From IMG/VR virus record IMGVR_UViG_3300025065_000027, positions 1 to 31,541 of that record: a stretch of DNA of 31,541 nucleotides; one strand, given 5' to 3'. The notes beneath the pieces are model-generated. The model had not been told where the DNA came from. It saw only the letters and a list, made by a program, of their open reading frames with translations, and did no database searches. Position numbers and translations under genes: made by a program. The stretch's first letter is position 1; each line of letters starts with the position of its first letter. Shown piece by piece: positions 2,449 to 31,350 of this stretch. The stretch is from a virus.

Positions 2449-5400
2449 ATGAAAAAAACAATAATCTTGGCGGTGATGATGATTAGTATGATTACCTTAG
2501 TTGGAGCTACAGATTATTGGGACTGGCTGACCAAAGCCAGAGCAGACTCTTTGTATTTCCAGAAAGGTTTTGACTTATTCTTGAGAAACAAATCTATATT
2601 TGACGCTTCTGAGATATGGGTTGAGGATATTTTCTTCTCAGGCAACATAACTCAGTATAATACTGCCCAGATCAATGGAACATTGATGCCTTCAGTAGAC
2701 AGTACATTTGATTTAGGCAGCCCTGTGTTCAGATGGAACAATGTTTATGCTATAAATCTGGTTGGTGCTTTGGACTGGAGCAACATAACCAACGCACCTT
2801 CTGGAGTTGCTGCTTGGAATCGTTCTGGAACTGATGTGTTCTTGGCTAATGATGGCGGCAACGTCGGCATTGGGACAACGGCACCAGGGGTTGTTTTAGA
2901 TGTTGTTAGTGCTGGTGCTTCACGTTTTACACGTGAGTATGCTACTGATGCTAATACAGCTCGCAATGCTTTTACGGTAAGAAGGTCTTATGATGGTGGA
3001 GCAGGAGCTGATGGTATTGGTGCTTTGGTTGGTTTTGTCGCAGAGACAGAGACCGAAGGAACAATGGAGGCTGGAGGTTATATAGGAGTAGTTCTTACTG
3101 ATGCGACAGCGGGAAACGTGGATGGTGCTTTAGTATTTAATACGATAACGGCCAGTGGTGCTTTTAGTGAAAAAATGAGGATAATTGATACTGGCAACGT
3201 CGGCATTGGGACAACAGCACCCGATACAATGCTACATCTACAATCAAGCACAGCGGACGTAGCCAACCCTATTTTAAAACTTGAAAATACAAATGCAGAT
3301 CCATATGGAACAGAGCTTACTTTCGAGTTAGATACAGCTTCACCAGCAGCAACTGATGAGATAGGAAAATTCTCATTTTTCAGCCGCAACTCAGCAGCAG
3401 AGCGCATACAATATGCCAATGTGTTTACAACAATTGCCGATGCTACTGATGGTTCTGAAGATGCTTTCTTCTCGTTTAGAACGATAGCAAATGGTACATT
3501 TGCCGATAGAATGGTTATAAAAGACGGCAATGTCGGCATCGGGACAATATCACCTAACAGACTAATAGAGATAGCATCAGCTAAACCTTTTATCAGGTTC
3601 AACGATACTGACGGAGATTCCTATAATGAAATCCAAAATAGTCATGGTGCTATGATCCTAGCTGCCGACGAAGATGGGGCATATGGTACTGACGCATACA
3701 TCAGATTTGACATAAATAATTCCAATGTAATGTGGCTGAAACAGAACGGCAACGTCGGCATCGGGACAACGGGGCCAGCTGGTTTATTACATGTTCAGAC
3801 TGCTGCAACGGGTGGAGCTGGCACAACAGCTTTATTTGAAAGATTTGAACCTGCTGCTGCTAACGTAGCATGGACATCTGCTCGTCTTTTAGCAACGAAG
3901 GTTGCTGCTATGGGTAACGGATGGGGCACGGCACTTACATTTAATGTCCAGGACGATGAAGCTGTAGTAAATAAGATAGGGGCTATTGCAGCGGTAAGGA
4001 AGGAAGGGGATAATATAGGAGAACTTGTGTTTATGACTGGCACAGGCGGTAGTTCTGAATATATGAGAATTGATAAGGACGGCAACGTCGGCATCGGGAC
4101 TGCGTCACCAGCTATTGCCTCTGGTGGTGGATTAAATGTCGCTGACAGTAATGCCCAATCTAATGTAGTTGTTGATACGTTTGATGATGGGGCATCTCGG
4201 TCGAATCTTTTTCTGCGTAAATCTGATTCAGACACAATTGGTACGAAAGCAGAAACTGATGATGGTGATTTATTGGGGGTTATTGGTTTCCATGGAGTAG
4301 ATAGCGATAGTGATTATACTTATGGGGCTATTATTAAGGCAATACAGAATGGTATTGCAAGTGGCACAAATGTTCCTGCTGACTTATATTTAGAATCTGG
4401 TGCTTCTGGTGGAACGAATACTAATCAGTTAGTATTACACCATGACGGCAACGTCGGCATCGGGACAATATCACCTAACAGACTAATAGAGATAGCATCA
4501 GCTCAACCTTTTATCAGGTTCAACGATACTGACGGAGATTCCTATAATGAAATCCAAAATAGTCATGGTGCTATGATCCTAGCTGCCGACGAAGATGGGG
4601 CATATGGTACTAACGCATACATCAGATTTGACATAAATAATTCCAATGTAATGTGGCTGAAACAGAACGGCAACGTCGGTATCGGAACAAAGAAACCAAC
4701 ATATAAACTCCAAGTAACACATACTGGACAGTCAGCACTCAATGTATCAGATACATTATTTGTAGACGGAACAACTGGAAACGTCGGGATAGGAACTTCA
4801 AGTCCTTCTCCATCAGGAGCATTCGGGCTTCATATCAACGGCTCTGACCAACATACAGTATTTGAACTGGAAAGCGGAGCAAGCGACAAAGATGCTTTCT
4901 TTACATACACTACAGATAAAAATGAACATAAAGTAGGTTACGATGCAAGTGATTCTGTATTTAAGATAGCACATGCAGCAAGTTTCGCAAACAATGACTT
5001 TGTAGTAAACGACAAAGGACAGATAGGGATGGGAACAAACGCACCAGCAGCCTGTCTACACATACAAAATGACTCTAATCCGATGATGAGAATAACAGAT
5101 GCTGGAACAGACACATTAGTACTAGGAGTAGACGGTTCAGGAATAGGCGTACTAGGCATCCAAGTCGGTGACTTGGACTTAAGGACAGGAGCAAGCTCAA
5201 CAGACATCAGAGGCGGAACGAGCAGGTTATATATAGATAGTGGAACTGGGAATGTTGGGGCAGGAACAACTACACCAAATGAAAGACTTACTGTTATTGG
5301 ACATATCAATTACACTGGAAACATAACAGGAGGTAATCTTATCTATGGTCAAATGGGTGAAAAGTTTGGTTGGGATACCCCTATGACTGTAACTTTCCCA

Positions 5401-5793
5401 TCATCTGGAGTATATTATAATGTTACTAACATGACTTATACTAAGTTAAATGGTTTTACTTATACTGATGCTAATCAGACTGATGGTGGAAGTTATTTAA
5501 CTGCTCAAGTGGCTGGAACCTATAAAGCAGATGCGCATTTTTCGGGTGCTGGAACTGCTGCTGGTGGTGCTTATGGGATTGTAATAGCTGAGAATTTTGA
5601 TAAATCTATAAATGAGGAAAATTGTTATGCTCATGTAGATGGTTTAGCATCTAGTATTGGTTTTTCAATTCATTGTGCGTTTGATTTGAAAGTTGGAGAT
5701 ACTGTAAACATCCAAGTAGAAGATGAAGCAGATCCGACAAAGAGTATAATGATTAGTACCCATAATCTTGTTTTAACTAGGATAGGTGATTAA
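2449..5793 (+). CDS. 1114-aa secreted fibre protein with GNVGIGT repeats and C1q/TNF-like head
   Basis: A signal peptide (residues 1-20, ending LVGA) is followed by a linker. Then come ten copies of a GNVGIGT-x-x-P motif spaced by 60-120 residues, a signature common in phage and archaeal surface fibres, where the motif forms trimeric beta-prism or coil joints. Residues about 969-1114 look like a C1q/TNF-type beta-sandwich (GVYYNV, AGTYKADAHF, LKVGDTVNIQV). The likely job is a trimeric host-recognition fibre secreted with the virion. Two segments (3531-3758 and 4452-4679) are near-identical internal duplications. No Shine-Dalgarno is seen; the ATG follows the previous stop by 8 bases. Confidence 0.85.
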   Translation: MKKTIILAVMMISMITLVGATDYWDWLTKARADSLYFQKGFDLFLRNKSIFDASEIWVEDIFFSGNITQYNTAQINGTLMPSVDSTFDLGSPVFRWNNVYAINLVGALDWSNITNAPSGVAAWNRSGTDVFLANDGGNVGIGTTAPGVVLDVVSAGASRFTREYATDANTARNAFTVRRSYDGGAGADGIGALVGFVAETETEGTMEAGGYIGVVLTDATAGNVDGALVFNTITASGAFSEKMRIIDTGNVGIGTTAPDTMLHLQSSTADVANPILKLENTNADPYGTELTFELDTASPAATDEIGKFSFFSRNSAAERIQYANVFTTIADATDGSEDAFFSFRTIANGTFADRMVIKDGNVGIGTISPNRLIEIASAKPFIRFNDTDGDSYNEIQNSHGAMILAADEDGAYGTDAYIRFDINNSNVMWLKQNGNVGIGTTGPAGLLHVQTAATGGAGTTALFERFEPAAANVAWTSARLLATKVAAMGNGWGTALTFNVQDDEAVVNKIGAIAAVRKEGDNIGELVFMTGTGGSSEYMRIDKDGNVGIGTASPAIASGGGLNVADSNAQSNVVVDTFDDGASRSNLFLRKSDSDTIGTKAETDDGDLLGVIGFHGVDSDSDYTYGAIIKAIQNGIASGTNVPADLYLESGASGGTNTNQLVLHHDGNVGIGTISPNRLIEIASAQPFIRFNDTDGDSYNEIQNSHGAMILAADEDGAYGTNAYIRFDINNSNVMWLKQNGNVGIGTKKPTYKLQVTHTGQSALNVSDTLFVDGTTGNVGIGTSSPSPSGAFGLHINGSDQHTVFELESGASDKDAFFTYTTDKNEHKVGYDASDSVFKIAHAASFANNDFVVNDKGQIGMGTNAPAACLHIQNDSNPMMRITDAGTDTLVLGVDGSGIGVLGIQVGDLDLRTGASSTDIRGGTSRLYIDSGTGNVGAGTTTPNERLTVIGHINYTGNITGGNLIYGQMGEKFGWDTPMTVTFPSSGVYYNVTNMTYTKLNGFTYTDANQTDGGSYLTAQVAGTYKADAHFSGAGTAAGGAYGIVIAENFDKSINEENCYAHVDGLASSIGFSIHCAFDLKVGDTVNIQVEDEADPTKSIMISTHNLVLTRIGD
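3531..3758 (+). repeat. Internal duplication in fibre gene, copy 1
   Basis: This segment recurs at 4452-4679, offset exactly 921 bases and so in frame, with only two or three mismatches. It encodes one full GNVGIGT module (NRLIEIASA through MWLKQNG). The other modules are far more diverged, so this copy arose recently or is kept alike by recombination. Confidence 0.95.
4452..4679 (+). repeat. Internal duplication in fibre gene, copy 2
   Basis: This is the second copy of the module at 3531-3758. Differences include an A-to-C change (Lys to Gln) and a G-to-A change (Asp to Asn). A different module follows each copy, so it is a duplicated or shuffled domain rather than a simple tandem repeat. 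Confidence 0.95.
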
Positions 5794-14223: not shown

Positions 14224-14401
14224 CCATTAGCCATAGCCAGAGCCAGAGCCATAGCCATCGCCATCGCCAGAGCCAGAGCCAGAGCCATCGCCATCGCCAG
14301 AGCCATAGCCAGAGCCATAGCCAGAGCCAGAGCCATCGCCAGAGCCATAGCCAGAGCCAGAGCCATAGCCAGAGCCAGAGCCATAGCCAGAGCCATCGCC
14401 A
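14224..14401. repeat. GCCNNN hexamer tandem repeat
   Basis: About 29 GCC triplets recur every 6 bases. The three variable bases are limited mainly to ATA, AGA, ATC and AGT-like forms. The repeat encodes the Gly-Ser-Tyr protein on the minus strand. It shares the GCC anchor with the pentamer arrays at 21.5 and 23.1 kb but has coding periodicity. Confidence 0.9.
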
Positions 14402-14424
14402 GACTTATTATCTTCGTAAGACAT
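14227..14424 (-). CDS. 65-aa Gly-Ser-Tyr/Asp repeat protein
   Basis: After MSYEDNKSG the whole protein is a run of G-S-G-Y, G-S-G-S and G-D-G-S units ending GYG. The DNA is a hexamer repeat GCCNNN read on the opposite strand, in frame with the codons. Such low-complexity chains are flexible linkers or sticky, phase-separating segments. The antisense frames are also open because of the repeat and should not be annotated. Confidence 0.6.
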   Translation of the reverse strand: MSYEDNKSGDGSGYGSGSGYGSGSGYGSGDGSGSGYGSGYGSGDGDGSGSGSGDGDGYGSGSGYG

Positions 14425-20395: not shown

Positions 20396-20426
20396 TTGGC
20401 CTGTGTGTGGTGTATGTTTTTAGTAT

Positions 20427-20449
20427 ATGTACAGTCCTGTACTGTACAT
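20427..20449. promoter_or_regulatory. Operator-like dyad ATGTACAGT-CCTGT-ACTGTACAT
   Basis: A perfect 9-bp inverted repeat with a 5-base spacer lies between the TATA-rich tract at 20484-20515 and the ATG of the ribbon-helix-helix gene (minus strand). Its position at the expected transcription start fits repression of its own promoter. Confidence 0.65.
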
Positions 20450-20475
20450 CCTACGGGAATGCACACCTACCACAA

Positions 20476-20555
20476 CCCCCCCCGTAATATTATTATATAT
20501 AATATTATATTTTTTTATATAATTTTTTATATTTTTATATAATTTTTTCATTTTT
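20476..20555. promoter_or_regulatory. C8 tract plus 70-bp A/T-only-like region
   Basis: Eight C (20476-20483) are followed by about 70 bases that are nearly all A/T, with TATATAATAT and repeated TTATATAATTTTTTATA words. It must hold the TATA box of the regulator gene. It could also serve as a duplex-unwinding element. It overlaps the 3' end of the 62-aa gene. Confidence 0.5.
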
Positions 20556-20723
20556 TTCGCTTGCAACTATCAAACAAAATCCACTCATAATGAACAGATA
20601 AGTTAATGCTGCTACAATTGCTGTAATTGGTTTATTTAAGATAATAACACCTGCAAGGGACGCAAACATTATTCCAAAAAACAATAGTCTTGTAATTAGA
20701 TATCTATTTTTGCTATTTTTCAT
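20535..20723 (-). CDS. 62-aa two-span membrane protein
   Basis: GAGGTTGAA precedes the ATG. Helices lie at about residues 9-29 and 34-53, and the tail is charged. It is the last gene of the short operon started at 21392. The function is unknown. Confidence 0.55.
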   Translation of the reverse strand: MKNSKNRYLITRLLFFGIMFASLAGVIILNKPITAIVAALTYLFIMSGFCLIVASEKNEKII

Positions 20724-20732
20724 TTCAACCTC

Positions 20733-20855
20733 TCACTTTTCATCTTTAGTAACATTAAATACAAAAATATAACCAAATATCAATGCCAAAATGATTTTAA
20801 TAGCCAATCCTATCCTTGTTGACATGATGTCTGGTGTGGTAAATGGGTCTAACAT
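20733..20855 (-). CDS. 40-aa single-span membrane peptide
   Basis: GGTGATAA precedes the ATG by 5 bases. Residues 14-34 are a hydrophobic helix, with a charged end. The good ribosome site supports the gene. The function is unknown. Confidence 0.5.
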   Translation of the reverse strand: MLDPFTTPDIMSTRIGLAIKIILALIFGYIFVFNVTKDEK

Positions 20856-20881
20856 TATTTTATCACCTTCTAAATTTTGTT

Positions 20882-21142
20882 TCATTTTATTTTATCATAT
20901 TCCTTTAATGCTTCACCCATAAAATACAATAATCCAATGAATAATCCTACAAAAATGGATAATAACATCAAAACACTAAGTATCCATCTAACTACTTCAA
21001 TATTAGTTAAACTCTCTAGTTCATTGAAGTACCTTAATACATCAATCGTATGATCCAATAACCATATCATTGAAGAAATTAAAATTCCAGAAAGGATACT
21101 ACATATCATCAAATTTGTCTTTGGTTTTATATCAAATCTCAT
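20882..21142 (-). CDS. 86-aa two-span membrane protein
   Basis: ATG 21142 overlaps the stop of the zinc-finger gene (ATGA); a longer frame to 21217 is antiphase inside that gene. Helices lie at about residues 12-30 and 52-74. The function is unknown. Confidence 0.55.
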   Translation of the reverse strand: MRFDIKPKTNLMICSILSGILISSMIWLLDHTIDVLRYFNELESLTNIEVVRWILSVLMLLSIFVGLFIGLLYFMGEALKEYDKIK

Positions 21143-21279
21143 TTCAACTTCCCATACATCACGTGATGTTTTCCAATTTTTGAGTGTCTTGTGTGGGCCT
21201 TTTTGCATAGGCGGCAATAGTATTGAGGTGTTTGTGATCCGCCATGCATATAGTCAAATAGTTTGCGTTTGGTTCTCAT
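21139..21279 (-). CDS. 46-aa C2H2-like zinc finger peptide
   Basis: CRLC (residues 22-25) followed by H29 and H32 or the HH at 38-39 gives a C2H2-type site in a basic peptide. It is coupled on both sides by ATGA and follows a ribbon-helix-helix peptide. It may bind DNA. Confidence 0.55.
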   Translation of the reverse strand: MRTKRKLFDYMHGGSQTPQYYCRLCKKAHTRHSKIGKHHVMYGKLK

Positions 21280-21392
21280 TTTACCTCTTTATCACACAGA
21301 CTAAGGATAAACTCTCTCCAGTTCCTATCTCCTTTGGCCTTCTCAAGACGGGCATAGTCCTTGTCTTCCATCGGAATATTCAGTGTTTTCAT
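21276..21392 (-). CDS. 38-aa minimal ribbon-helix-helix protein
   Basis: The chain is almost exactly one ribbon-helix-helix unit: strand KTLNIPMEDKDY, helix ARLEKAKGD, turn RNW, helix REFILSLCD. AGGTGAT lies upstream. As first gene of its operon it is a candidate transcription repressor that acts on the promoter at 21437. Confidence 0.6.
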   Translation of the reverse strand: MKTLNIPMEDKDYARLEKAKGDRNWREFILSLCDKEVK

Positions 21393-21436
21393 TGTATCAC
21401 CTCTAAAAAACTAAATAACTAAGTTATATATAATAA

Positions 21437-21446
21437 TTTATATAAA
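21437..21446 (-). promoter_or_regulatory. TATA box TTTATATAAA
   Basis: It lies 45 bases before ATG 21392 on the minus strand, so transcription would start near 21410. The box is itself palindromic, and a second TTATATATAA lies at 21424-21433. It drives the ribbon-helix-helix/zinc finger/membrane operon. Confidence 0.55.
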
Positions 21447-21459
21447 CTTGTTAGTGAAA

Positions 21460-21487
21460 ACAAGCAGCAGGTTTCCCCACTGCTTGT
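21460..21487. other. Hairpin ACAAGCAG...CTGCTTGT beside array 1
   Basis: A perfect 8-bp inverted repeat with a 12-base loop sits between the promoter above and the first unit of the pentamer array. It may end transcription of the array or mark its edge. Confidence 0.6.
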
Positions 21488-21490
21488 GAA

Positions 21491-22039
21491 CTTGCCTTGC
21501 TATGTTTTGCCACGCCCAGCCTAGCCCAGCCTAGCCATGCCGAGCCTTGCCCCGCCCCGCCGAGCCCAGCCTTGCCATGCCGAGCCTTGCCACGCCACGC
21601 CATGATCATAAAAATACCTTGCCTTGCTATGTTTTGCCACGCCCAGCCTAGCCGAGCCAGGCCTTGCCATGCCGAGCCTTGCCACGCCACGCCATGATCA
21701 TAAAAATACCTTGCCTTGCTATGTTTTGCCACGCCCAGCCTAGCCCAGCCTAGCCATGCCCCGCCCCGCCGAGCCCAGCCTTGCCAGGCCAAGCCGTGAT
21801 CATAAAATAAATACCTTGCCTTGCTATGTTTTGCCCCGCCAAGCCATGCCAAGCCCTGCCGAGCCTTGCCATGATCATAAAATACCTTGCCTTGCTATGT
21901 TTTGCCCCGCCAAGCCATGCCAAGCCCAGCCAAGCCAAGCCACGCCTAGCCCCGCCAAGCCGTGATCATAAAAATACCTTGCCTTGCTATGTTTTGCCAA
22001 GCCCCGCCTAGCCCTGCCGAGCCATGCCTTGCCAGGCCG
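21491..22039. repeat. Pentamer array 1: six units of (NNGCC)n
   Basis: Each unit begins with CTTGCCTTGCTATGTTTTGCC, followed by 7-18 NNGCC pentamers (18, 11, 13, 7, 11 and 8 in units 1-6). Units 1-5 end in an A/G-TGATCATAAAATAC-type spacer; unit 6 ends in GTGAACATAAAC. The pentamer phase never slips within a unit. Units 1-3 share sub-strings, as do units 4-5, so growth was by unit duplication and whole-pentamer gain or loss. No protein is encoded: the conserved spacer falls in different frames from unit to unit. This fills the 660-base gene-free stretch 21393-22052. It is much richer in GC than its AT-rich neighbours. Confidence 0.95.
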
Positions 22040-22052
22040 TGAACATAAACAA

Positions 22053-22535
22053 CTATTTACCTGGAAATGGTATTGACATCGTGTTGGTATTGCTCATAGC
22101 ATTCGCTTTCTTATATACCAACCTTCCGTTCTCAGCAGCAACTCTTATAGCACCAAATACAGCACCGATATACAATATCTCTTTCTGTTCAGTCGGTGAA
22201 AGGCTGTTGAAGAATTGGCCCTGTAATGTCTTTTGTGTCTTGTCTGCTCTCTTCACAGCACGATCTATCCTTCCAAGCTTGTTTACTAATATTGGCATTG
22301 TATCTGAACCTTCTGCTATCTTTACCCCATATCCTCTGATGGCCGAGTAAACAAGTTTTGCCCTTCGGAATGCACTCCGAAGGTATTGTTTTCCTTTGTT
22401 GTCCATATTGATATGTGTTTCTGATTGTATCTGCATATAGCTAAGCTCCTTTCCTGGCTTGAACTTCTTTATGTATGATTCAAGCTTTAATGTTTCCTCG
22501 CTAACTTCTGGTATAGTTTTCATCCCTCTTCCCAT
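22053..22535 (-). CDS. 160-aa protein of the array-flanked cassette
   Basis: GGAGGGAATAAA precedes the ATG, which overlaps the RAMP-like gene by 16 bases. Residues 28-60 (GKELSYMQIQSETHINMDNKGKQYLRSAFRRAK in register) look like a winged-helix or similar helical DNA-binding unit. The C-terminal half is helical (FNSLSPTEQKEILYIGAVFGAI). It ends 14 bases before array 1. I do not recognise a named family. It probably works with the upstream protein. Confidence 0.65.
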   Translation of the reverse strand: MGRGMKTIPEVSEETLKLESYIKKFKPGKELSYMQIQSETHINMDNKGKQYLRSAFRRAKLVYSAIRGYGVKIAEGSDTMPILVNKLGRIDRAVKRADKTQKTLQGQFFNSLSPTEQKEILYIGAVFGAIRVAAENGRLVYKKANAMSNTNTMSIPFPGK

Positions 22536-23083
22536 TTTATTCCCTCCACTTCAAATCTGCCATAGTATCCCCAGTTCTTTGGTCTGAACCTACCCACTCC
22601 AATTATCTGCCCAGCTTCCCTAAGAACTTTCTCAAACACTTCCTTTGTTATAATGTCGTCGAATATAACAAAAGTTACTTCACCACGCCATTTCTGGACT
22701 AATGGAAAGCATTTCTCGACTCTTGTTGTTCCTCCACGCCTGCCATCAGAAGGGACAAGCACCCATTCAGAATCGACTTTCTCTTTTGTTATAGGTAAAA
22801 CTAATGGTTGGAATACAAGTATCCCACTCTGAAAGTTCTTTGTGTATTTGCTCTTTCCCTGTCCTGGAATCGGTAACGACAGGTATGTTGCTGCTTCCTT
22901 TATACAATTGGCAAATGCCATCGGTGGTATAAATATATTACCTTCCTTTGTGCAATGGCATTTCTCACGCCAAGTTCTAGCTTCATAATCTGCATGAAGC
23001 TCTTTGCTTTTCTTCTCTGCTTTGTGGTATCTTCCCTGTGAATAGGGAGATACACTAACCAATTTACATATTGCTTTCCTCAT
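22520..23083 (-). CDS. 187-aa conserved phage-type protein with RAMP-like C-terminus
   Basis: It starts M-R-K-A-I-C-K-L-V-S-V-S-P-Y-S-Q-G-R-Y-H. It contains a H-x-D-Y-E-x-R-T-W-R-E-K stretch, FIPPMAF and SDGRRGG, and closes with IIGVGRFRPKNWGYYGRFEV (about residues 160-179). I recall relatives of this pattern from phage genomes. The glycine-arginine loop between two strands resembles RAMP (Cas5/6/7-type) RNA-binding folds. This similarity is a pattern judgement only. The gene opens a two-gene operon placed between the two pentamer arrays. Confidence 0.6.
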   Translation of the reverse strand: MRKAICKLVSVSPYSQGRYHKAEKKSKELHADYEARTWREKCHCTKEGNIFIPPMAFANCIKEAATYLSLPIPGQGKSKYTKNFQSGILVFQPLVLPITKEKVDSEWVLVPSDGRRGGTTRVEKCFPLVQKWRGEVTFVIFDDIITKEVFEKVLREAGQIIGVGRFRPKNWGYYGRFEVEGIKWEEG

Positions 23084-23114
23084 TTCAGTTCCTCTGGTTT
23101 TTACCTCTTTGGGT

Positions 23115-23391
23115 AAAATACCTTGCCTTGCTTTGCTATGCCCCGCCTAGCCCAGCCGAGCCTTGCCAAGCCAAGCCACGCCTTGCCACGCCTAGCCCCG
23201 CCCAGCCTAGCCCCGCCAAGCCCCGCCTTGCCATGATCATAAAATACCTTGCCTTGCTATGTTTTGCCAAGCCACGCCCCGCCGAGCCGAGCCATGCCAC
23301 GCCATGCCGAGCCTTGCCAAGCCAAGCCATGCCGTGCCTCGCCTCGCCTTGCCGAGCCACGCCCTGCCACGCCTAGCCATGCCTTGCCAAG
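23115..23391. repeat. Pentamer array 2: two units of (NNGCC)n
   Basis: It holds two units of 18 and 24 pentamers. The first begins with a variant leader (TTGCCTTGCTTTGCTATGCC). A standard ATGATCATAAAATACC spacer separates them. It lies immediately upstream of the RAMP-like gene and overlaps a 20-codon ORF on its far side. The variable dinucleotide set is the same as in array 1, with GT and TC found only here. Confidence 0.95.
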
Positions 23392-23435
23392 TAAACATCA
23401 AATATGCCTGTTAATATCATTCCAGTAAGGTTCAT
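23373..23435 (-). pseudogene. 20-codon ORF running into array 2
   Basis: Its ATG overlaps the upstream stop (ATGA), as real genes here do. It begins like a membrane peptide (MNLTGMILTGIFDVYLA), but the reading frame enters the array and stops. It may be a gene cut short when the array arrived or expanded. Confidence 0.3.
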
Positions 23436-23575
23436 CCATTCTTCAACCTCCGCAAACAAGCAGCATATTGGTGAACATCAATCTCACCGTCTTCATACAA
23501 ACATCTAAGGATAGAAGCCCAAGTGGCATCGCTTGGGACATAAATTCTTGCTAACCTCTGGGTAATCTTAACCAC
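23432..23575 (-). CDS. 47-aa small helical protein
   Basis: It starts at GTG 23575, overlapping the acidic gene by 8 bases. The sequence DATWASILRCLYEDGEIDVHQYAACLRRL suggests two or three short helices, perhaps a small helix-turn-helix. It is moderately supported by coupling at both ends. Confidence 0.4.
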   Translation of the reverse strand: MVKITQRLARIYVPSDATWASILRCLYEDGEIDVHQYAACLRRLKNG

Positions 23576-23696
23576 CCCACAAATAATCCTCAAATTCCTT
23601 GTCCCATACTTTAAAACTTTTACTTTCTAAACCTTCTTCTTTGTCCTCTTCCTGTTCTTGTTCTTCTTCTTCCTCATACAGTTCTTCTTCGTTCAT
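23568..23696 (-). CDS. 42-aa strongly acidic peptide
   Basis: More than half of residues 3-24 are Glu, Asp or Gln-Glu runs; the end carries aromatic residues (VWDKEFEDYLWGG). It overlaps the lipoprotein stop by ATGA. Acidic small proteins can mimic DNA, which would suit an inhibitor, but this is conjecture. Confidence 0.5.
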   Translation of the reverse strand: MNEEELYEEEEEQEQEEDKEEGLESKSFKVWDKEFEDYLWGG

Positions 23697-23908
23697 TTGT
23701 TAACCCCTTCAATTATTTTATCTTGGCAACTTTTGCTTGCATTAATATAAAAATCATGGTATTGATCGCAATCTACAGTTATTATTGTTTGGCCACCACG
23801 AATGGCACTACCAGAATATCTAAAACATTTAGTTTCACATGAACCACTAAGTGCACAGCCTGTAACTAATAATGTTAATACAATCATGATCTTGATTAAG
23901 TTTTTCAT
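23693..23908 (-). CDS. 71-aa lipoprotein
   Basis: It has a signal peptide with lipobox V-T-G-C (Cys18). The mature part has four more cysteines (SCETKC, VDC, SCQ). AGGAGGTTAGC precedes the ATG, close to the leader used by two structural genes. It is a surface lipoprotein of unknown function. Confidence 0.65.
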   Translation of the reverse strand: MKNLIKIMIVLTLLVTGCALSGSCETKCFRYSGSAIRGGQTIITVDCDQYHDFYINASKSCQDKIIEGVNK

Positions 23909-23931
23909 CTGCTAACCTCCTTGTTTGGGTG

Positions 23932-24013
23932 CAGACCAGGTATCTTAGGGAAAAGAGGTGATCGGCTGGGTGTGCATCCAGCCCACACAAAACCCATCCA
24001 TAGCACCTGGTCC
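23932..24013 (-). ncRNA. Possible structured RNA or leader element
   Basis: Outer arms GACCAGGT (about 23934-23941) and ACCTGGTC (about 24004-24011) pair perfectly and extend by a further GC pair past one mismatch. An inner stem GGCTGG/CCAGCC lies at about 23960-23980. It occupies the gap just before the lipoprotein ribosome site on the minus strand, where a leader regulator would sit. It does not resemble a tRNA. Confidence 0.4.
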
Positions 24014-28557: not shown

Positions 28558-31350
28558 ATGGTAAGAGTATTTAGAACACCAGAAGGCAAGACAGTAACGA
28601 TTACTAGGAGTGAGGTAGTACCTTCTGCTGACTGGACAATGATATCAAACACCAGTACACCTCAAGTACAGACAACAACACAAAAGATACCAACACCCCA
28701 AGGGGCAACTGGAAATGAAAGACAGATCATTGAAAAGACAAACTTAATAAATAAAAAGAGAGCTGAACTGCAAGGCATACGGGACAATATATCGAGATTG
28801 GAAATAGAACTCATAAAACACCCTAGTTCTGAAATGATACAACAACAACTAAAGTCACAAAGGAGATCATTAGATAGACAACATAGGATAATAAGCAATG
28901 CAGAGAGAAGGTTACAGCAAGCTAGAGATAGGATGGGTGGGATTCCTGCTGAACAAAGGGAAGTGATAGATAAAGAAACAGGCAAATCAGTTCCATTCCA
29001 TAAGAAAAGGATAGGTGCAGTAGTGAGGGGTGGAGAAGTTACAAGGGAGACAGTTGAAGCTGCACGACAAAAAGGTTTACAAGAAGGATTTTATGACGTG
29101 AAACTTGTAGAACAAGAACAACCTGAACTAAAAGAACAAGAACTAATTGTTAGACCACTGAGTACAAGAGGAGAACCAACTGGTCCTTGGACATTGAGAA
29201 AGAGTGTAGGTGGTCAAGCAGTAGAACTAGAAGAACAACCGCCACCAGGCATAAGAGAACAAGAACTATTCATCAGAGAAGTAAGGCCAAGTGGGGAGCG
29301 TGGAGAATGGCAACCTAGAAAAGCATTAAAAGGCGTTCTTGAACTAAAAGAAACACCAGTCGAGGTGATGAGAGAAGAGACAACAACAAAACAAGAGTTT
29401 GTCAGACATTTAGAGACCAAACTCAAAGCCAAAGGTCAGTTTGAAGGAGAACAGATTGTATCATTTCCATATGTTGGTGGTTTTGCTCTAGTGCCAGAAA
29501 CAGCAAAAGCACAGCCAACATTTGAAAGAAAACTAGGCACTGGTATAATGTATCATTCACTTACAGTTATTGAAAAAGCAAAGTTTCAATACGAAAAGGC
29601 AAACAAAAAGATTTCTGGTTGGTTAAAGAAAGTAACGCCATCAATGAAAGGTATTGAAGAATGGAAAATTAGAGGAGAAGAAAGCAAGATCAGGAAATGG
29701 GAGAGAGAACACTTGCCAGATTGGTTGGCAGGCCCTAAGGTGACAAGAAAACAGCAAGACAAAGACTTTATTGCTGGCTTAAGACGTGGAGCTTATGAAG
29801 ATATTAGGGAAAGGCCATTAAAGTTTGCAGTAACTGCAGCAGCATTTGTTGGAGTAAGTGGAGTATTACAGCTAGGCGGTGCAGCTTTAGCAGCAAAAGG
29901 TGTACAGATATGGAAACCTATAAAATATAGTTTTGCCATTGGTCTGCCAGCAGTGTATGGCTTGGCAAAGTACCAACAGATTAAAATGCTGCCAACTAGG
30001 AAAGCAAAATATGAGGCAGGTGGTAGGATAGCGACAGAGCTTAGTGCTATGGTTATTGGTACAGGAATAGGCTCAAGATTATGGCCAAAGATTGCTGGTT
30101 ATATTAGAACAAGAGGTATGAAAGAAGTGCTAGCAGAAGAAATAATTGAACCCAAAGTTTTAACTGGAGAAAAAACATTTCCAACAGCACCAACACGAGT
30201 CCATATGAAGAAATTTATTGATACAAAGTATAGGTTGCCAGGCACAGAAGAGAGATTAGGAGTTTGGCACGCAGGGCCAGAGACATTTGCAAAGACAACA
30301 ATAACCAAAGTAGGAACAAGTGAACTGCCAGGGTTATATACAAGCCCATCATTGAGTCAATACTTTTTGAAGGTAAGCAAAGGAAGCTCAGTATATGGTG
30401 CAGAGCTGTTCCCCCAAGGATTGAGACCGACAGCAGTATATGTTTACCCTAAAGGGATAAGCAGATTATTTGGTGGTAGAGGAACAATGTATAAATTCTT
30501 ATTGCAGAAAGCACCTAAAGGCAAAGCATATGTGCCAGGCATAAAGTCAGAGATTGAGGCAATCATACCACCAGAAACAAAACTGTTTAGGGCAAGAGCA
30601 AGATATTATACTAAAGTTGAGGGTGTTAGAGTGCCGATCTATGAGTATGAAGTTCAAGGAGCAGGTGCACTTAAACTGCTTGGTGGCAAAGTGCCAAAAG
30701 CATTGCCATTTAAGAGGATTGTCAGCTCTTATTCATACACAAGGGCACCATTGACTAGCCCATTAGGTTTTGCAGTGAGTTATAAATTATCTAAAGTATT
30801 GAGCTATAAGCCAAGCTATTATACTCCAAGTTATAAGAGCATAACATCTTATGTACCATCTTACAAAACATCTTACAAGCCAAGCTATGCTATAAGCTAC
30901 AAGCCAAGTTATGTGCCAAGCTATAAGCCGAGTTATACTCCATCCTACAAGCCCAGTTACAAGCCTAGCTATAAACCATCTTACAAGCCATCATACCAAC
31001 CTAGTTACAAACCAAGTTACAAGCCTAGCTATAAGCCTTCATATAAGCCAAGTTATAAGCCATCATATAAGCCCAGTTACAAACCTTCATATAAACTTAG
31101 TTATAAGTTATCTTACAAAGAAAGCTACAAGGAATTGTTCAAGCCATCACCTCCTCCCATCAAGATCAAACCTAAACCATTGATAGGGAAAACGAGAGTT
31201 AAGCGGAAGAAAAAGAAGTTAAGGAGAAGAACCATATACAACCCAAGCTTAGAGGCAACCCATCTGCTAGAAGTAGGAGAAGCACCAGACGTGTTAACAG
31301 GAATAGAACTAAGGCCAATCCCAGTTGGGAGGATGGCAATAAGGATTTAA
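28558..31350 (+). CDS. 930-aa virion-type protein with possible ADP-ribosyltransferase domain and KPSY repeat tail
   Basis: The N-terminus has a coiled coil at about residues 58-125. Then comes a charged linker with LKEQELIV/REQELFI repeats, a hydrophobic region at about 422-505 (two or three possible spans), and a domain at about 560-700. In that domain GVWHAG (His571), GLYTSPSLSQYF (592 on) and KSEIEAIIPP (Glu665, Glu667) follow the H/R, S-T-S and E-x-E order of ADP-ribosyltransferases. Residues 741-859 are about 28 Ser-Tyr steps of KPSY type; a Lys/Arg-rich segment precedes the end. It is the first gene of the structural unit. No clear Shine-Dalgarno. The enzyme call is tentative. Confidence 0.75.
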   Translation: MVRVFRTPEGKTVTITRSEVVPSADWTMISNTSTPQVQTTTQKIPTPQGATGNERQIIEKTNLINKKRAELQGIRDNISRLEIELIKHPSSEMIQQQLKSQRRSLDRQHRIISNAERRLQQARDRMGGIPAEQREVIDKETGKSVPFHKKRIGAVVRGGEVTRETVEAARQKGLQEGFYDVKLVEQEQPELKEQELIVRPLSTRGEPTGPWTLRKSVGGQAVELEEQPPPGIREQELFIREVRPSGERGEWQPRKALKGVLELKETPVEVMREETTTKQEFVRHLETKLKAKGQFEGEQIVSFPYVGGFALVPETAKAQPTFERKLGTGIMYHSLTVIEKAKFQYEKANKKISGWLKKVTPSMKGIEEWKIRGEESKIRKWEREHLPDWLAGPKVTRKQQDKDFIAGLRRGAYEDIRERPLKFAVTAAAFVGVSGVLQLGGAALAAKGVQIWKPIKYSFAIGLPAVYGLAKYQQIKMLPTRKAKYEAGGRIATELSAMVIGTGIGSRLWPKIAGYIRTRGMKEVLAEEIIEPKVLTGEKTFPTAPTRVHMKKFIDTKYRLPGTEERLGVWHAGPETFAKTTITKVGTSELPGLYTSPSLSQYFLKVSKGSSVYGAELFPQGLRPTAVYVYPKGISRLFGGRGTMYKFLLQKAPKGKAYVPGIKSEIEAIIPPETKLFRARARYYTKVEGVRVPIYEYEVQGAGALKLLGGKVPKALPFKRIVSSYSYTRAPLTSPLGFAVSYKLSKVLSYKPSYYTPSYKSITSYVPSYKTSYKPSYAISYKPSYVPSYKPSYTPSYKPSYKPSYKPSYKPSYQPSYKPSYKPSYKPSYKPSYKPSYKPSYKPSYKLSYKLSYKESYKELFKPSPPPIKIKPKPLIGKTRVKRKKKKLRRRTIYNPSLEATHLLEVGEAPDVLTGIELRPIPVGRMAIRI
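30778..31131 (+). repeat. 12-bp KPSY-coding tandem repeat
   Basis: AAG-CCN-AGY-TAY codon blocks repeat with many silent differences (AGT/AGC/TCA/TCT for Ser, TAT/TAC for Tyr). Synonymous scatter means selection on the peptide, not fresh DNA slippage. Confidence 0.9.

Follow-up and report, generated by a model that had tools for sequence, protein, structure and literature searches.

Repeat Tracts Flanking Two Genes

A script recount of the window, i.e., the whole 31,541-nt stretch of viral DNA analyzed here, found eight uninterrupted tracts of NNGCC pentamers on the + strand, all in one phase, of which six fall within 21507-22038 and the other two within 23138-23388. These contain 118 pentamers in total, or 110 after omitting the first pentamer of each tract, a constant lead-in whose NN is TT in seven of the eight and AT in the other. 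The recount agreed with the original prediction of 110 pentamers in eight units without a phase slip, and its hand-counted NN frequencies (AA 15, AC 14, TT 14, GA 13, CC 13, TA 11, AT 11, CA 10, AG 3, CT 3, TC 2, GT 1; GG, GC, CG and TG absent) were reproduced exactly. Its coordinates (21491-22039) took in six of the units, the two further units at 23138-23388 lying outside them. Five phased GCCs occurred 86 times in the window, versus none in 100 dinucleotide-preserving shuffles.

Read on the minus strand, the tracts become (GGCNN)n, with GGC fixed and NN variable, and it is on this minus-strand RNA that the constraint falls, in keeping with the earlier proposal of a constrained, strand-asymmetric tract rather than random decay. 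The tracts flank two genes, 22520-23083(-) and 22053-22535(-). In most units the minus-strand layout is ATGATCAT or a near variant, followed by the (GGCNN)n tract, then AAAACATAGCAAGGCAAG and an AT-rich spacer.

We numbered the tracts v1 to v8, all on the minus strand. Upstream of the two genes lie v1 (23266..23388), with 24 NN and a terminal AA (AA AT TA GT AG GT TC AA GA GA AC AT TT TT AA TC AT GT AT TC TC GG GT TT), and v2 (23140..23232), with 18 NN (AA GG TT GG TA TG GG TA GT AA GT TT TT AA TC TG TA GG). Downstream are v3 (21996..22038; 8 NN, CT AA AT TC AG TA GG TT), v4 (21904..21961; 11 NN, TT GG TA GT TT TT TG TT AT TT GG), v5 (21833..21870; 7 NN, AA TC AG TT AT TT GG), v6 (21728..21795; 13 NN, TT CT AA TG TC GG GG AT TA TG TA TG GT), v7 (21636..21693; 11 NN, GT GT AA TC AT AA CT TC TA TG GT) and v8 (21509..21601; 18 NN, GT GT AA TC AT AA TG TC GG GG AA TC AT TA TG TA TG GT).

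The constant 3' tail and spacer after v1 (AAAACATAGCAAGGCAAGGTATTTTATGATCAT) occupy 23233..23265(-), and slightly altered copies follow v3 to v7 on the same strand (21962-21995, 21871-21903, 21796-21832, 21694-21727 and 21602-21635). The tail AAAACATAGCAAGGCAAG follows seven of the eight tracts, v8 included, with v2 having the variant ATAGCAAAGCAAGGCAAGG. No stable hairpin was predicted in the tail (z +0.9 to +1.4, pseudoknots being outside the folding model). The six-unit array is closed by a stem-loop at 21460..21487(-), with a 12-pair stem and a fold z-score of -3.63, which is a candidate transcript end. An Rfam scan of 20400-24000 returned nothing relevant, and thus gave no hint of hammerhead ribozymes separating the units.

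Some units have NN segments in common (v6 with v8, v7 with v8, and v4 with v5, in runs of up to six NN), while v1 and v2 have no long guide segment in common with other units. The idea that units differ by whole pentamers only held for the phase, but NN letters were also substituted, as with CT in v7 against TG in v8. The pattern suggests that guides turn over and that units recombine with one another; of the "actively written" tract first envisaged there was no sign.

Identity of the Two Genes

Arrays of this kind have a published counterpart. VIPR, described in a preprint from the Doudna group in April 2026, is a noncontiguous RNA-guided system, possibly older than CRISPR (bioRxiv 2026.04.26.720920; PMC13142463). 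Its components are a RAMP protein (Vipr), a vap gene, and vrRNAs made of alternating GGY and variable NN. The NN letters serve to read double-stranded DNA, one base being skipped each time, and competing phages and satellites make up most of the natural targets (PMC13142463). Seven types have been published, from bacteriophages and archaeal viruses, with vrRNAs of 9-16 NN and, in the SUSP1 clade, a structured tail with a pseudoknot (PMC13142463). The belief that nothing known in archaeal viruses matched the arrays was thus mistaken, the same architecture being described in that preprint.

The gene at 22520..23083(-), vipr, encodes a 187-aa protein of phrog_4652, a family whose annotated function is unknown. 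When a family alignment (A1, 69 members) was run against the PDB with hmmsearch, it matched 36pp, "SUSP1 Vipr protein" (E = 1.2e-43), and a Felix O1-type relative matches the 36pp sequence almost identically. An AlphaFold2 model of the window protein (mean pLDDT 94.9, pTM 0.88) had as its nearest solved folds the Csm3/Cas7-type CRISPR RAMPs, with Z up to 12.6, and predicts a Cas7/Csm3-type RAMP fold with high confidence. Identity to family members outside its own clade was about 15-28%. Neither Pfam nor NCBIfam contains a model for Vipr or vap, and a search of viral contigs for the closest relatives, with the single Vipr protein as query, gave none.

The second gene, vap (Vipr-accessory protein; 22053..22535(-), 160 aa), overlaps the vipr stop. 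An iterated profile built from its product matched, in Felix O1-type phages, the gene that comes immediately after vipr (E = 2e-28). The model of this protein (pLDDT 88.2) has a predicted winged-helix-like N-terminal domain and long helices, with weak matches to DNA-binding winged helices. The product is likely a DNA-binding protein, as the vaps of some VIPR types are.

Arrays and vipr Occur Together in Other Viruses

A metagenome search for NNGCC tracts, as originally suggested, was productive when viral contigs were scanned for eight phased GCCs, yielding at least 120 loci, many of them with long tracts in which NN varied freely; a 15-base tail pattern gave no near relative of this virus. 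An iterated profile search from the window gene found a vipr homologue in 85 of 120 viral loci that had been retrieved through their arrays and nothing else, and the remaining 35 had mostly single short tracts or small totals. Near vipr-family genes, 342 of 349 tracts were on the sense strand and 7 on the opposite strand.

Because the 120 loci had been fetched by their arrays, gene-first sampling was added. In annotated GenBank tailed phages with vipr (the Felix O1 group, LESphi2 and DSL-LC04), the gaps adjoining vipr-vap contain (GGTNN)n or (GGCNN)n tracts. Vipr was also found in seven of 371 genomes of DPANN (the phylum of a Candidatus Nanoarchaeia assembly), with GGC arrays adjoining the gene in four of the seven, GGT array(s) in one and a GTT-like array in one.

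Individual loci showed departures from the usual form. In one DPANN genome (L367:736-948), an uninterrupted tract of 42 GGYNN repeats, far above the reported 9-16, follows the Vipr gene. In another (L375, 28% GC), an array some 570-960 bases downstream from the start of vipr has the consensus GTT/GGT/GAT-NN, possibly a low-GC variant of the GGC-NN repeat. In L065 and L119 the array lies on the strand opposite to that expected from the nearest vipr match, which in L119 is partial.

Avoidance of C after GGC

The original prediction had described an almost eight-letter dinucleotide alphabet, but comparison with other family members did not support such a special alphabet: these use all 16 dinucleotides, and the only general avoidance is of C after GGC. 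On the RNA strand, NN starting with C is missing or rare in the window (3/110). Across 93 vipr loci, C stood right after GGC in 12.1% of cases, versus a background of 28% and 25.6% after GGT, and C was not strongly depleted at the second NN position. GGT was used more often before C (14.6% versus 5-9% otherwise; Fisher p = 2e-8, with counts uncorrected for relatedness). The lack or rarity of NG dinucleotides in the + strand NN slot of the window reflects this family-wide avoidance.

The simplest reading of the bias is avoidance in the guide RNA of GGCC, a self-complementary word, although restriction-site avoidance could also lie behind the GGCC depletion. The AT-rich content of the guides and the segments common to units may explain the remaining NN bias. 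A uniform NN distribution in relatives, with free point mutations and phase slips, had been put forward as grounds for refutation; NN usage family-wide comes close to being that broad, yet this fits a guide code and leaves function unrefuted. The GGCC-avoidance rule, effected partly via GGT before C, would be needed by anyone decoding vrRNAs.

Assignment to VIPR and Alternative Readings

Judged by its sequence, the locus has the components that define VIPR: Vipr, an adjoining vap, flanking GGC/NN tracts and an invariable 3' tail. We consider it highly probable that this is a VIPR system and that the tracts are eight vrRNAs, because of the profile match to 36pp, the RAMP fold, the linkage of arrays to the gene, the sense-strand orientation of the tracts and the position of vap downstream. 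As in the VIPR of Escherichia phage SUSP1 and its Felix O1-type relatives (bioRxiv 2026.04.26.720920; PDB 36pp), a RAMP protein is followed directly by a small vap, and the genes are flanked on either side by GGY/NN vrRNAs with constant tails, all in sense orientation. Against this reading stand the lack of a target match in searches of limited reach, the distant Vipr sequence, the tail without a predicted stable hairpin, and tracts of 7-24 NN versus the reported 9-16. The last three also set the window apart from the SUSP1/Felix O1 type, as do its use of GGC only, its eight units versus four, and the fact that no tailed-phage packaging genes were recognized among the proteins scanned.

Class 1 CRISPR-Cas systems have the RAMP fold in common with the window Vipr (Z 12.6 for Csm3 and 12.3 for Cas7 of type VII), but the locus has a single RAMP and a pentamer guide. 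There is no repeat-spacer array and no cas operon, and the genes separating the arrays are vipr and vap alone.

The trp RNA-binding attenuation protein (TRAP) binds (GAGNN)11, in which the repeats are binding sites and not guides. Like these sites, the window arrays present a fixed triplet and two free letters on RNA, and the window protein has a predicted RNA-binding fold, so that the arrays might be titration or regulatory sites for a TRAP-like filament or ring, with NN as mere spacers. We regard this as very unlikely: the predicted fold is that of a RAMP, different from TRAP, the triplet is GGC and not GAG/UAG, and in the published homologue NN serves as the guide letters. Some units also have up to six successive NN in common, which would be needless for spacers, although duplication alone could explain this.

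A selfish, functionless microsatellite grown by replication slippage would account for the tandem period of 5, and for the common segments by duplication, but it has next to no chance of being right given that NN varies widely around an unchanging GGC, that a constant tail follows each unit, and that arrays across a great diversity of viruses accompany a single gene, on one strand. Equally improbable is a low-complexity protein encoded by the tracts; long ORFs do cross them, e.g., 21451-21852(-), but the period of 5 runs through all frames, and the tracts of other members lie in noncoding gaps beside vipr.

Proposed Mechanism

Under the VIPR reading, the locus would form one minus-strand transcription unit, comprising two vrRNAs, vipr, vap, six vrRNAs and the stem-loop. 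Each vrRNA would consist of a (GGCNN)n tract and the constant 3' tail, and vrRNA reads from the GGC strand would be expected to end after GCAAGGCAAGG. By homology with SUSP1, Vipr subunits would line up along the vrRNA, each holding one GGC and presenting NN, and the ordered NN letters would base-pair with a single strand of the DNA duplex, following a gapped NNxNNx pattern in which one base is skipped. The bound complex would then keep the target, most likely a rival virus or a mobile element, from being transcribed, and vap, as a likely DNA-binding protein, would help. Because the window Vipr is distant from the characterized protein, the code is here carried over a long evolutionary distance.

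If this is correct, VIPR extends to a divergent branch, with a complete locus, whose eight guides can be decoded, in a virus that is probably archaeal, and the guides amount to eight concrete target predictions. The guide arrays had been picked out from the raw sequence by a reader without knowledge of VIPR.

Targets, Relatives and Host

The eight guides, decoded with the one-base-skip rule, gave best scores against the window equal to those of shuffled guides. For v1, v2, v6 and v8, exact sub-patterns were sought in viral contigs, and for v1 in genome contigs too; rescored over the full guide, their matches were at chance level, as were those of v1 and v8 sub-patterns with up to three mismatches in the 371 DPANN genomes. 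The best score, for v2 in L228 (28/38), was about as expected from the number of matches. These searches were partial, covering sub-patterns or up to three mismatches, and the right element may be absent from the data.

In a tree of 77 family members and one Felix O1-group sequence, the window Vipr formed a fully supported clade on a long branch with its two closest relatives, L036 (IMGVR 3300037504_000599; 57% identity) and L034 (IMGVR 3300044993_000356; 49%). This clade sits within a 31-row clade that holds the Felix O1-type sequence, inside which the long-branch joins are uncertain. Both relatives resemble the window in having vap downstream and a tail with a similar AAGGCAAGG end; in L034 this is AACACAAGGCAAGG, similar to the CAAGGCAAGG end of the window tail. 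They differ in lying on GC-rich contigs with fewer units, which in L034 are placed between vipr and vap.

The window ATPase has relatives in 6 of the 371 DPANN genomes (35% identity at best, E = 4e-39), and Vipr is also present in two of these six; a search of genome contigs by ATPase for the closest relatives gave none. The host is probably archaeal, from DPANN. A bolder proposal, which we consider rather improbable, is that the window, L036 and L034 represent a VIPR type outside the seven published, having guides as long as 24 dinucleotides and a tail that lacks the structure reported elsewhere, and that the window virus infects DPANN archaea and targets rival archaeal viruses.

Three other repeats were seen in the window. 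A hexamer array at 14228-14403 also repeats GCC (GCCATA/GCCAGA); it lies in a minus-strand ORF (14227-14424) whose ATG is preceded by a GGAG site and whose product would be a Gly/Ser/Asp/Tyr repeat protein, and the array is probably coding rather than a vrRNA. A 1114-aa protein encoded at 2449-5793(+), similar to the tail-fibre families phrog_9942 and phrog_18345, has repeated VGIGTT motifs, and tandem SYKPSYKP repeats encoded at 30874-31130(+) lie near the C terminus of a 930-aa protein.
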